A stretch of 64,000 bases of DNA from an uncultured Wenzhouxiangella sp. (GTDB taxonomy: Bacteria; Pseudomonadota; Gammaproteobacteria; Xanthomonadales; Wenzhouxiangellaceae), in NCBI GenBank assembly GCA_913057195.1, contig CAJXNL010000001.1, positions 124,001 through 188,000 of the forward strand, in the 5' to 3' direction. Both the position numbers and the translations under genes were made by a program. The notes under the pieces are model-generated. The model had not been told where the DNA came from. It did no database searches and saw nothing but the letters and a program-made list of their open reading frames with translations. Shown here piece by piece: positions 17,787 to 32,732 of the stretch (positions are counted from its first letter, which is position 1; every line of letters starts with the position of its first letter).

Positions 17787-19235
17787 TCAATGGTGATCAA
17801 GATCCCACTCCAACACGGTGGCCAACGAGGGATGCTCATCCGCCAGGCGCTGACGCAGTGGTTTGGCCAAACGCTTGCCCTCCTCCACGCCCCACTGATC
17901 AAAGGCGTTCACGCCCCAGAGGATGGACAAACTGAACACAGCATGCTCCAGTGAGGACAACAAAAACCCCAGCCGTTCGGGCGTGATTGATTCGGTAAGC
18001 AATAACGCCACCGGTCGGTTGCCAGGCATCTTCTGATGCGGCGCACCCTCACCGCGACCGAAGGCCATGGCATGGCGCTGTGCCAACAAATGCGCCAATT
18101 GAATGTGATCGAACTGAGCCACACCGGCTGGATCGTTCATTGCCCCCACAAGCAGCAGAGGATGGGTGTCCATGCCTTGGTGCAACGCCTGGAAAATGGA
18201 GTGTTGAAAATCTGTGCCGCGCCCACCATAGATCAGTGGCACGGTGGGGGCGTCTAGGGGCGCGCCGTTGGCGGTCACCCGTTTGCCGAGGCTCTCCATG
18301 AAAAGCTGCTGGCAGTAGTCACCCAGCAACGCCAGCCTGGGCTCATAAGCGATGATGCCTAAGGTGTTGAGATCCAAACCCCGCCTTAAATGGTGGACCA
18401 GCAACGCCAACCAAACGGCCAACGTTTGATCGTTCGGCCGATGGTGGTGTCGATAGCCGAGATCGGCATGGTGCGCGCCCTCGCACAGCGCCTCAAACGC
18501 GGCCGAGCCAATGGTGGCAGCCGCGCTGACGCCCACCGACGACCACAGCGAAAACCGCCCGCCTGTCCAACTGGGGAAAGCCAGCACATGCGCCTGATCA
18601 ATCCCAAAAGCGAGTGCCCGGCTCGGATTGGCGGTCGCTGCCCAGGCCTGATCCCTAAACCGATCGCCCAACCAGCCCCGGACGTGTTCAGCCAGCGCCA
18701 AAGTCTCTTCGGTTCCAAACGATTTTGAGGCAATGACCACGCCCGTGGTCGCCGGGTTCAGGCTCGACAGCAACCGCTTCAGGCGACGTCCATCGACCGT
18801 CGACAGCCAGTGCACGTTGACTCGACTGTCGCCCTCATCCAAGGCATCCGCCACCAAGCGCGGCCCCAAATCCGACCCACCGATGCCAATGTGGATCCAA
18901 TCGCTGAACCCCGATTGGCCACTGTAGAGCCGATCCGCCAAGGTCAAAAACGCGCGCCGCGCCGCACCCACCTCGCCGGCGTCGGGTGATCGCAGGTGGG
19001 GGTGCAGTGCCGGCTGATCTTCAGAGGCGTTGACATGATGGCCCGTAAACAGGGCCTCGATGGCGTCGGCCGGGGCCTGATCCAAAAATTGTGCGGCCAG
19101 TCCATGACGAGCCTCATCAGACAGGGGCCAGTGGCTGTAATCCAGTACCCAGTCTCGATCGTGCACCCGACACCGGCGCCGTTCGTCGGGGTCTGCGCGG
19201 AGCAATTCGGCGATGGTGGGCGAAGACGTGGCCAT
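17787..19235 (-). CDS. pgi: Glucose-6-phosphate isomerase
   Basis: Interconverts glucose 6-phosphate and fructose 6-phosphate. At 482 residues it is shorter than the E. coli form (549). The sugar-isomerase cores are intact: HIGIGGSDLGPRLV, VIASKSFGTEETL, GGRFSLWSSVG, and the catalytic stretch MESLGKRVTANG with GGRGTDFQHSIFQALHQG. It starts with ATG at 19235 and no Shine-Dalgarno sequence. A TACAAT -10-like hexamer lies only 10-15 bases upstream, so the transcript could be leaderless or nearly so. A strong terminator 98 bases upstream separates it from any earlier transcript unless that terminator is read through. Confidence 0.93.
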   Translation of the reverse strand: MATSSPTIAELLRADPDERRRCRVHDRDWVLDYSHWPLSDEARHGLAAQFLDQAPADAIEALFTGHHVNASEDQPALHPHLRSPDAGEVGAARRAFLTLADRLYSGQSGFSDWIHIGIGGSDLGPRLVADALDEGDSRVNVHWLSTVDGRRLKRLLSSLNPATTGVVIASKSFGTEETLALAEHVRGWLGDRFRDQAWAATANPSRALAFGIDQAHVLAFPSWTGGRFSLWSSVGVSAAATIGSAAFEALCEGAHHADLGYRHHHRPNDQTLAVWLALLVHHLRRGLDLNTLGIIAYEPRLALLGDYCQQLFMESLGKRVTANGAPLDAPTVPLIYGGRGTDFQHSIFQALHQGMDTHPLLLVGAMNDPAGVAQFDHIQLAHLLAQRHAMAFGRGEGAPHQKMPGNRPVALLLTESITPERLGFLLSSLEHAVFSLSILWGVNAFDQWGVEEGKRLAKPLRQRLADEHPSLATVLEWDLDHH

Positions 19236-19332
19236 AAGGGCTGTATTGTAAGGCGCTTAAGGCGCCGGTGTCGGCGTGGGTGTTGTTTTTTTGCAACACT
19301 CGCCGCTCCCGGTGTTGGGGGCGTGCCCACAT

Positions 19333-19439
19333 AAAAAAACCCCTCCCAAGCACGCTGGGAGGGGCAATTTTTTCGGAGTGATGTATCTCGCTACGCGCCC
19401 TGCAACCTTGCCATTACTGTCAGCGTGATGCCAAGATTG
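19333..19439 (-). ncRNA. Candidate small RNA or pgi leader with attenuator (about 105 nt)
   Basis: Inferred transcript from a well-spaced promoter (predicted start near 19439) to a perfect intrinsic terminator ending in seven U residues at 19333. No reading frame of significance lies inside. A first hairpin can form between CAAUCUUG and CAAGGUUG, then about 40 unpaired bases including A6, then the 9-bp terminator stem CCCCTCCCA/TGGGAGGGG. The layout matches trans-acting sRNAs. Because pgi begins 98 bases further on in the same direction, a transcription attenuator for pgi is the alternative. I recognise no known RNA family. Confidence 0.5.
19340..19364. terminator. Strong bidirectional intrinsic terminator
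   Basis: A nine-base-pair GC-rich stem, CCCCTCCCA/TGGGAGGGG, with a seven-base loop. On the minus strand it is followed by seven T residues (plus-strand A tract 19333-19339). On the plus strand it is followed by CAATTTTTT (T tract 19368-19373). It therefore can stop transcription both ways, insulating pgi from the intergenic transcript and vice versa. Confidence 0.88.
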
Positions 19440-19474
19440 GTGGTAAGCATACCACAACATTTTCTCGAATCCAA
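19440..19474 (-). promoter_or_regulatory. Sigma-70-type promoter with palindrome over the -10 box
   Basis: Read on the minus strand: -35 TTGGAT (19474-19469), a 17-base spacer, and -10 TATGCT (19451-19446). The inverted repeat GTGGTA-N4-TACCAC (19440-19455) covers the -10 box and runs to the predicted start, which is where a repressor would act. The promoter would produce the RNA at 19333-19439. Spacing is optimal and the boxes match four of six consensus positions each. The regulator is unknown. Confidence 0.5.
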
Positions 19475-19476
19475 GG

Positions 19477-19498
19477 GTTTCACTTGAGTTTCACTCGA
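19477..19498. repeat. Tandem 11-bp direct repeat upstream of the -35 box
   Basis: Two adjacent copies, GTTTCACTTGA and GTTTCACTCGA, differ at one position. They lie at about -38 to -59 relative to the predicted minus-strand start, immediately upstream of the -35 hexamer. The 11-bp period puts both copies on the same face of the helix, the arrangement used by OmpR/PhoB-type response regulators, although the sequence is not the known PhoB or OmpR box. Confidence 0.5.
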
Positions 19499-19516
19499 TG
19501 CCCTCATACTGACCTC

Positions 19517-19563
19517 GTTCGGCCAGTGATTGGCTCCTCTGACTCCCTCCTGCTGAGCCGAAC
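19517..19563. other. Imperfect hairpin-forming segment
   Basis: The ends GTTCGGC (19517-19523) and GCCGAAC (19557-19563) form a perfect 7-bp stem enclosing a 33-base loop. The loop reads as pyrimidine-rich on the plus strand and as GGAGGGAG...GAGGAG on the minus strand. It stands 10 bases before the plus-strand terminator at 19574. It could be part of an untranslated RNA; I see no coding frame or family match. Confidence 0.35.
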
Positions 19564-19573
19564 GCATCCCTCG

Positions 19574-19608
19574 AAAGCCCCGGCTGATCGTCGATCGGTC
19601 GGGGCTTT
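19574..19608 (+). terminator. Intrinsic terminator (plus strand)
   Basis: The stem AAAGCCCCG/CGGGGCTTT (19574-19582 with 19600-19608) encloses a second small GATC/GATC hairpin and ends in five T residues (19606-19610). It faces the plus strand, yet no plus-strand gene precedes it: the nearest upstream gene, pgi, is on the other strand. It implies a plus-strand transcript arising within 19375-19570, or protects the 19680 operon from read-through. Confidence 0.65.
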
Positions 19609-19679
19609 TTATCGACTGAGGCGAGGTTAATATGGGAGGCGATGGTGACCGAAGTTGATCCTCAAGCGGAGTTCGCTCA

Positions 19680-20174
19680 ATGACCGACACCCCAGCGCCC
19701 CAGTCCACGCCCGATTTTGGTGTCAGAACCAAAAAAACAGCCCGCATGCTCGGCGGCATGGGATTGATTCCGATGCTGGGCCTGGCCGCACTGGCCGTCT
19801 GGGGCGGCCCGTCGTGGGCGCGGCTGGCATTGGTCAGCTACGCCATGTTGATTTTGGCGTTTATGGCCGGCACGCTGTGGGCGCGGCGCATTTATGCCCC
19901 ACCCCAGCCCGATTCGGGTCGGTTTGAGCTGCTGGCGTCCAACGCTTTGGTGCTGGCCGCGTGGCCGGCGATTGGCATGTCGACCGCGGTGGCCGCGGTG
20001 TGGCTGGGCAGTTTGTTTGCCCTCCATTTGGGTCTTGACCAGCCCTGGCGGCGCCGGTCGGGACCGGCGTGGTATCGCCACATGCGGCTGTGGATCAGCG
20101 TCGCGGTGATCGGCTCACTTTTAACCGGCGGCGCGATTGGGCTGGGCATGAACGTGTGGTCCACCACCCCTTGA
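19680..20174 (+). CDS. DUF3429-family membrane protein
   Basis: Predicted inner-membrane protein of 164 residues with about five hydrophobic segments (roughly 25-40, 46-67, 84-99, 101-116, 132-155). The spacing and the middle SYAMLILAFMAGTLWA resemble the DUF3429 family, whose function is not known. The ATG at 19680 follows GCGGAG by nine bases. Its stop overlaps the start of the next gene (TGATG), so it appears to be the first gene of the four-gene plus-strand cluster. Confidence 0.72.
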   Translation: MTDTPAPQSTPDFGVRTKKTARMLGGMGLIPMLGLAALAVWGGPSWARLALVSYAMLILAFMAGTLWARRIYAPPQPDSGRFELLASNALVLAAWPAIGMSTAVAAVWLGSLFALHLGLDQPWRRRSGPAWYRHMRLWISVAVIGSLLTGGAIGLGMNVWSTTP

Positions 20175-32376: not shown

Positions 32377-32732
32377 GGCGCCACAAACCCGGTGTGCATC
32401 ACCAAAGCATCATCCTCATCGCCGGGGGCATACACCCCCACATCCACCCGCCACATGGCCGGATCGGGACTGGGCCCGATGACGGCTTGCCACACCCACG
32501 ACTGATCCGCCATGCGCATTTCGCCCTGCCGCCGACCGGGTGCGGCCACCCCTTCGAGTCGGATGTCTGTCAACACATTGTCCGCCACCATCAACGCCCA
32601 GGTGCGCTGCGCCACTTGGTGATGCGCATCCAGTGACAGCGCGCCTGAGCGCGCCAAGCCAAACAACGCCACCGAAACGATCAGCAAGCTGATCAACACT
32701 TCCAACAGCGTCATGCCGCGGCTTTTTTTCAC
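32373..32732 (-). CDS. gspI: Type II secretion minor pseudopilin I
   Basis: 119-residue minor pseudopilin that nucleates the pseudopilus tip with GspJ and GspK. The site KSRG/MTLLEVLISLLIV has Glu at +5. ALMVADNVLTDIRLEG and the C-terminal WRVDVGVY pattern match GspI. It starts with GTG sharing GTGA with the gspH stop. Confidence 0.92.
   Translation of the reverse strand: MKKSRGMTLLEVLISLLIVSVALFGLARSGALSLDAHHQVAQRTWALMVADNVLTDIRLEGVAAPGRRQGEMRMADQSWVWQAVIGPSPDPAMWRVDVGVYAPGDEDDALVMHTGFVAP

Follow-up and report, generated by a model that had tools for sequence, protein, structure and literature searches.

The gap between pgi and a DUF3429 gene in the Wenzhouxiangella window (the whole 64,000-nucleotide stretch analyzed here) carries a small RNA gene, RNA-1, whose family, judged by sequence comparison, spans much of the order. 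We think it likely that RNA-1 is a free-standing, trans-acting small regulatory RNA of ~105-112 nt rather than an attenuator of pgi, a reading that starts from what is directly observed: its sequence, conservation, covariation, position, and persistence in the absence of either neighbor. The initial annotation had proposed a regulated small RNA or a pgi attenuator, and its interpretation is partly supported. The minus-strand elements it described are present, and conservation and covariation strongly support a small RNA, but its views on the palindrome, the repeats and the gap itself needed revision.

Architecture of the RNA-1 gene

The gap is bounded by pgi on the minus strand (phosphoglucose isomerase, 17787-19235, start at 19235; PF00342, E 8.1e-91), which lies downstream of RNA-1, and by the DUF3429 gene on the plus strand (19680-20174, start at 19680; PF11911, E 2.7e-19), which lies downstream of a second, divergent RNA, RNA-2. 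RNA-1 itself occupies 19332-19443 on the minus strand, as defined by its conservation in the order and by a match to covariance model R2 (19443-19332, 92.1 bits, E 1.1e-19, with the window copy among the sequences used to build the model). We infer a 5′ end at ~19443-19438 and a 3′ end at the U run. The gap is not the only long one, as had been suggested, since the listing of long open reading frames also leaves 2420-2875 (tRNA-Leu) and 32377-32728 empty, the latter being ~350 further bases without a long open reading frame.

The predicted promoter (19446-19474, minus strand) consists of a -35 box TTGGAT (19474-19469), a 17-base spacer and the hexamer TATGCT (19451-19446) within the extended -10 element TGGTATGCT. 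These boxes are where the initial annotation placed them; the hexamers are weak (3/6 and 4/6 matches to consensus) and are not among the promoters listed by a scan, but an extended -10 of the form TGGTAnnn(T/C) is found upstream of RNA-1 in 70 of 84 loci. Behind the promoter come a 5′ stem-loop, SL1 (19405-19437, with arms at 19437-19432 and 19410-19405), identified by covariation, and a core (19375-19402) recognized from the alignments and locus sequences, in which CAGGGCGC (19402-19395) and UCACUCC (19381-19375) lie between the helices. The gene ends in a Rho-independent terminator (19333-19365) with a stem at 19365-19340 and seven T residues at 19339-19333; this element, already noted in the initial annotation, was picked up by the terminator scan and has a covarying stem. 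The minus strand folds better than shuffled versions (z -3.2, 0/200). The earlier view that no protein is encoded here also held: Pfam returned nothing up to E 0.1 for four open reading frames of the gap, and one of at least 10 codons occurs in only 22 of 78 RNA-1 members. RNA-1 thus has, from its sequence, its own promoter, its own Rho-independent terminator and no conserved protein, and it is conserved independently of its neighbors, though pgi stays downstream in most loci.

Two possible control sites around the promoter had been taken to suggest dual regulation of RNA-1, a proposal that did not survive comparison among loci. The palindrome GTGGTA-N4-TACCAC over the -10 box is present in the window, and its GTGGTA half is found in 69 of 84 loci, but the full form occurs in only 21 of the 84 (14 of the 30 loci in the Wenzhouxiangella set), and we dismissed it as a conserved operator. 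The 11-bp repeats, GTGAA at 19494-19490 and 19483-19479, are real and conserved, but they head a conserved plus-strand RNA and hence belong to RNA-2 rather than to the RNA-1 promoter. A different element, GGAACTT-N(15-18)-TC, precedes the -10 box by 82-98 nt on the RNA-1 strand; among the 27 loci of the window genus whose upstream sequence is available, it is present in 22 (L004-L017, L019-L025 and L028). The window subclade (L001-L003), L018 and L027 lack it, and the count leaves out L030, which has no upstream sequence, and L026 and L029, which belong to other genera; the 54 other loci gave one chance-like match. The element fits the sigma-E consensus and is presumably a sigma-E-like promoter.

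Just upstream of pgi on the minus strand, the window also has an inverted repeat, GTGTTG-CAAAAAAA-CAACAC (19280-19299). A 27-base near-copy of this region (96%) lies at G020:C55:13871-13897, on the contig that carries RNA-1 in that genome, and the repeat may on this basis be a pgi control site.

Distribution and conservation of RNA-1

A blastn search of the gap against 61 relatives gave matches in 29 genomes, counting the window's own, and most of them span query positions ~218-224, at the -10 box, to ~347-358, at the U run. The conserved unit is therefore the promoter core plus the RNA and not the whole gap. A 30-locus alignment contains the nearly invariant stretch GGTYGCAGGGCGCGAAGCGAGRTACATCACTCCGA. 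Covariance model R1 was built from alignment A1, comprising 28 loci (contig ends truncate L023 and L025, which were left out); a terminator with a U run is present in 28 of 28 rows of A1, all of which had been cut at a T run. R1 matched 40 of 43 genomes of the family, with the 28 loci that built it matching by construction and two of the matches being the degenerate copies L103 and L104, and it matched all 25 near-complete genomes of the family. Across the order it matched 113 of 299 genomes at E ≤ 0.01, with false ones among the weakest. Inspection of 40 R1 loci revealed RNA-1 or a degenerate copy in 37 and neither in three; the R1 matches L132, L133 and L134 were rejected by eye because the core is absent.

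Model R2 was built from a wider alignment, A4, of 49 sequences that omits the degenerate copies L101-L104 and also L131, which had a low R1 score. At E ≤ 0.001 it matched 116 of the 299 genomes sampled from the order, at least one of them falsely (G128, L133). In the class, seven of 369 genomes matched, and of the four that lie outside the order one is real and three lack the core. The real one, L156, is a panB-panC-RNA-panD-pgi locus in which GGTAATCGTCACTCC is kept and CAGGGCGC is altered. RNA-1 or a decayed copy was found in 17 of 20 additional loci inspected, and L157, L158 and L159 were discarded by eye as R2 matches with no core. Altogether, members with the core occur in 11 of the 12 sampled families of the order, family f9 having given none. 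Among the R2 misses, the 20 that were listed (there are 163 more) fall in f1, f2, f9 and f12, so that RNA-1 appears patchy in f2 and f12.

The degenerate copies L101-L104 sit at the same locus as RNA-1, and in two of them, both from genus g5 (L103 in G033 and L104 in G066), the core is rearranged and CACUCC lies inside the first stem-loop while the panC-panD locus is retained, possibly reflecting an evolutionary remodeling of RNA-1. UCACUCC has been lost from L150, and SL1 is reduced or absent in the shorter members L154 and L155. Searching named genomes for a 19-base piece of the core returned 33 stretches. Among the 11 inspected, RNA-1 was present in two labeled Wenzhouxiangella or Wenzhouxiangellaceae and in L047, which is labeled Alphaproteobacteria and is probably a mislabeled bin; the other eight (L041, L046, L048, L049, L054, L058, L061 and L062) were set aside as chance matches. 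The remaining 22 stretches carry the labels Wenzhouxiangella, Wenzhouxiangellaceae or plain Gammaproteobacteria.

The comparison with relatives proposed in the initial annotation thus found RNA-1 conserved, and it also found the helices to covary. In A4, SL1 and the terminator together comprise 16 pairs, of which 15 show changes on both sides, and 98.2% of cells are paired, a count that is favored to some extent by the fitting of A4 to the structure of R1. Both-side changes affect six of six pairs in SL1 (97.2% of cells paired, 49 sequences) and nine of ten in the terminator stem, and the covariation score of A4 is 0.523, against 0.230 when shuffled (0/500) and at most 0.163 when slid. The core is not part of any covarying helix, and it is kept in the alignments while the flanks drift. 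Its two motifs are invariant nearly throughout (UCACUCC and CAGGGCG are each found in 76 of 78 sequences), with a linker between them that varies in both length and sequence. Mean unpaired probabilities of 0.58 for UCACUCC and 0.49 for CAGGGCG, compared with 0.43 for the whole RNA, predict a moderately accessible core.

Genomic context and mode of action

The usual order of genes around RNA-1 is panB-panC-[RNA]-(panD)-pgi, the genes being named by Pfam (pgi, DUF3429, panD, panB, panC and HerA-like) and elsewhere by similarity to these. In the Wenzhouxiangella set, pgi lies downstream in all 28 loci with downstream sequence; panD intervenes in 20 of them, and pgi is directly next to RNA-1 in the window species and seven other loci. 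Pfam model PF02261 found no panD in the window's own genome (1.78 Mb, 98.9% complete). Upstream, 19 of the set's 29 loci have a DUF3429 gene, and no panC match was found in any of the window genus's 28 loci (within ~1.5 kb in 25 of them). Outside the set, 54 real loci have panC upstream in 41 cases, panD downstream in 21 and pgi downstream in 42. Seven of the 54 have neither panD nor pgi within 2.4-3.1 kb downstream. One of these, L119, has a group II intron match (RF02001, 2758-2915) ~87 nt past the terminator, and its pgi may lie beyond the intron, so we count six such loci (L107, L108, L141, L142, L150 and L154). A convergent HerA-like gene takes the place of panD and pgi downstream of RNA-1 in L107 and L108. 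RNA-1 therefore survives the loss of either neighbor, which argues that it has a function of its own.

We infer that RNA-1 is transcribed, base-pairs with mRNAs and represses them. According to this model, RNA-1 would be transcribed from a promoter of the housekeeping type that has an extended -10 and would stop at its own terminator, and the product would fold into a 5′ stem-loop, a linear conserved core and, at the 3′ end, the terminator stem followed by a U tail. UCACUCC is complementary to Shine-Dalgarno sequences of the GGAGUGA type, and the likeliest action would be for this core to pair with the ribosome-binding sites of mRNAs and thereby block translation. The pattern GGAGTGATG occurs at eight places in the window's own genome, one of which is RNA-1. 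A pattern search of 37 genomes with the 12-mer complementary to the core, CGGAGTGATGTA, found the RNA-1 gene and eight other places on scattered contigs, and no shared target was seen.

The main competitor to this trans-acting model is that RNA-1 is a cis-acting leader, either an attenuator or a riboswitch, of panD-pgi, in which a conditional terminator would allow read-through into the operon. The position of pgi downstream of RNA-1 throughout the Wenzhouxiangella set and in 42 of the 54 other loci is what such a leader would predict, and it leaves room for some cis effect by read-through. Moreover, panD has its first in-frame ATG 32-54 nt past the terminator in 17 of 20 loci (5, 8 and 79 nt in the others), which leaves little room for a separate promoter. 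When the 3′ arm is removed, the 5′ arm of the terminator can also pair with the GGGCGC core (CAGGGCGC) in 40 of 77 sequences. This pairing, however, comes to 5.2 bases in the Wenzhouxiangella set against 4.6 with letter-shuffled arms, and in three other groups it is lower than with shuffled arms; thus, over 76 sequences in four groups, a conserved antiterminator pairing was not clearly above the shuffled controls. The leader model also sits poorly with the six loci where neither panD nor pgi follows in the 2.5-3 kb examined, including the two in which a convergent gene does, and with a first panD or pgi match that starts anywhere from ~23 to as far as 745 nt past the terminator. Given these observations, together with the intervening panD, the attenuator of pgi raised as one option in the initial annotation was not supported, and we consider a leader function unlikely.

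Two further explanations address the core and the origin of the transcript. The core may bind a protein, making RNA-1 a decoy or scaffold with no mRNA pairing. A protein site could well consist of two short invariant motifs with a linker between them that varies in length and sequence, and the lack of a consistent 12-nt target in the 37 genomes is in keeping with it; the resemblance of UCACUCC to an anti-Shine-Dalgarno sequence and the precedent of sX13, in which C-rich loops are reported to act on G-rich start regions (PMC3771888), point the other way and make this option quite improbable in our estimation. The proximity of panC, for which the match to a full-length query ends 15-340 nt before RNA-1 in 39 of the 41 loci that have it (623 nt in L154 and 703 nt in L150), could instead mean that RNA-1 derives from the 3′ untranslated region of the panC mRNA. 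We give this very little credence because none of the window genus's 28 loci has a panC match upstream, and the extended -10, the RNA and the terminator are still kept where a DUF3429 gene takes the upstream position. A trans-acting RNA that pairs through its core is thus the reading we prefer.

A divergent RNA and its repeats

RNA-2 lies head to head with RNA-1 on the plus strand (19511-19612) and was defined by model R3, which matches it at 70 bits (E 2.2e-12) with the window copy in its building set. Its stem-loop bears a C-rich loop (GACUCCCUCC), its terminator finishes in UUUUU (19606-19610), and ~70 nt separate it from the DUF3429 gene. The direct repeat TTCAC-N6-TTCAC (19479-19494, plus strand) lies upstream of its -10-like hexamer CATACT (19505-19510) and is found in 16 of 29 loci (0/5,800 shuffles). 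The first stem is of the UUCGG...CCGAA type and presents the C-rich loop GACUCCCU in 16 of 16 loci, 13 of which have an extra CCUCC; outside the window subclade, the terminator loop carries CUCCC. Changes on both sides affect nine of the 23 predicted pairs, and the window copy folds at z -5.1 (0/200 shuffles).

Across the order, R3 matched 28 of 299 genomes: the 16 used for building, seven new ones and five without the features of RNA-2. The seven new loci come from three other genera of the family, five of them from one genus, and all seven have TTCAC-N6-TTCAC in front and a DUF3429 match behind; RNA-2 and RNA-1 are on separate contigs in these genomes. A DUF3429 match is also present in 14 of the 16 building loci, the exceptions within the sequence examined being L009 and L014. 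Matches L194-L199 were rejected by eye because the RNA-2 core is absent. L199 and L200 (in G061 and G062) are second, weaker R3 matches, and L199 has CCUCC-rich hairpins without the RNA-2 core. RNA-2 may be a small RNA or a leader of the DUF3429 gene.

The 11-bp spacing of the repeats suggests that they probably drive RNA-2 through a response regulator of the OmpR/PhoB type. The cre/blr-tag of the CreB and BlrA regulons is TTCAC-N6-TTCAC (PMC3660660), identical to the repeats in letters and in spacing. The window's own genome differs from that regulon in having PhoB while CreD and a CreB above cut-off are missing: PF06123 found no CreD there, and the best match to the CreB model NF008296 scored 186 bits against a cut-off of 273. 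CreB was set aside as the regulator on these grounds. The three best-matching response regulators in this genome are PhoB and two unnamed proteins.

Relation to known RNAs

Rfam 15 (the initial annotation had suggested an Rfam search) gave no known family for either RNA: in the window and ten loci, no family reached its gathering score over RNA-1 or RNA-2, and there were weak matches only. The matches above that score are other features, namely the tRNA of the window and the group II intron of L119. The closest sub-threshold families over RNA-1 were NsiR1 (RF02399, 20.6 of 39 bits) and anti-hemB (RF02837, 15.9 of 49.5 bits), which align mainly with the terminator and leave the core unmatched. 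The pan motif is a leader RNA of pantothenate genes and resembles RNA-1 in lying beside such genes, but Rfam scans of the window and ten loci did not match it, and RNA-1 is retained where panD or panC is missing.

Another comparison, made by description, is with sX13 of Xanthomonas. sX13 is reported to be an RNA of ~115 nt downstream of polA with three stems that bear 4C/5C loops (PMC3771888). Its size, fixed chromosomal locus, variable flanks and C-rich motifs have parallels here, and RNA-2 in particular resembles it through C-rich loops, carried on two stems where sX13 has three. RNA-1 differs in having only two stems, with a long linear core. Nor does either RNA lie downstream of polA, as sX13 does by that account, RNA-1 being found at panC/panD-pgi and RNA-2 before the DUF3429 gene. 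Searches of the open-license literature found no small RNA of Wenzhouxiangella, nothing relevant on a small RNA at panC, panD or pgi, and no Xanthomonadales small RNA with a covariance model and an Rfam comparison. Bacterial small RNAs as a kind are well known; relative to the Rfam 15 scans and the open-license literature searched, the RNA-1 and RNA-2 families appear to be new.

Implications

A more ambitious reading, which we offer as speculation and consider improbable, is that the gap is a two-RNA control point. RNA-1 would be an ancient small RNA maintained through the order at a locus of pantothenate and glycolysis genes and joined by RNA-2 in Wenzhouxiangella. The anti-Shine-Dalgarno core of RNA-1 would set the translation of a CoA and sugar regulon, read-through of its terminator would dose panD and pgi in cis, and the head-to-head RNA-2 would be driven by a response regulator, with a sigma-E-type promoter added in many species. 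If this were true, envelope stress, a two-component signal and growth would meet at two small RNAs. Irrespective of this larger scheme, the analysis adds two RNA families beyond those that the Rfam 15 scans recognized, and the covariance models, the fixed locus and the availability of named species such as Wenzhouxiangella limi and W. sediminis, which are cultured and harmless, make RNA-1 directly testable. The presence of RNA-1 in nearly all sampled families of the order, with two motifs held almost letter for letter, implies a basic role that these bacteria share.
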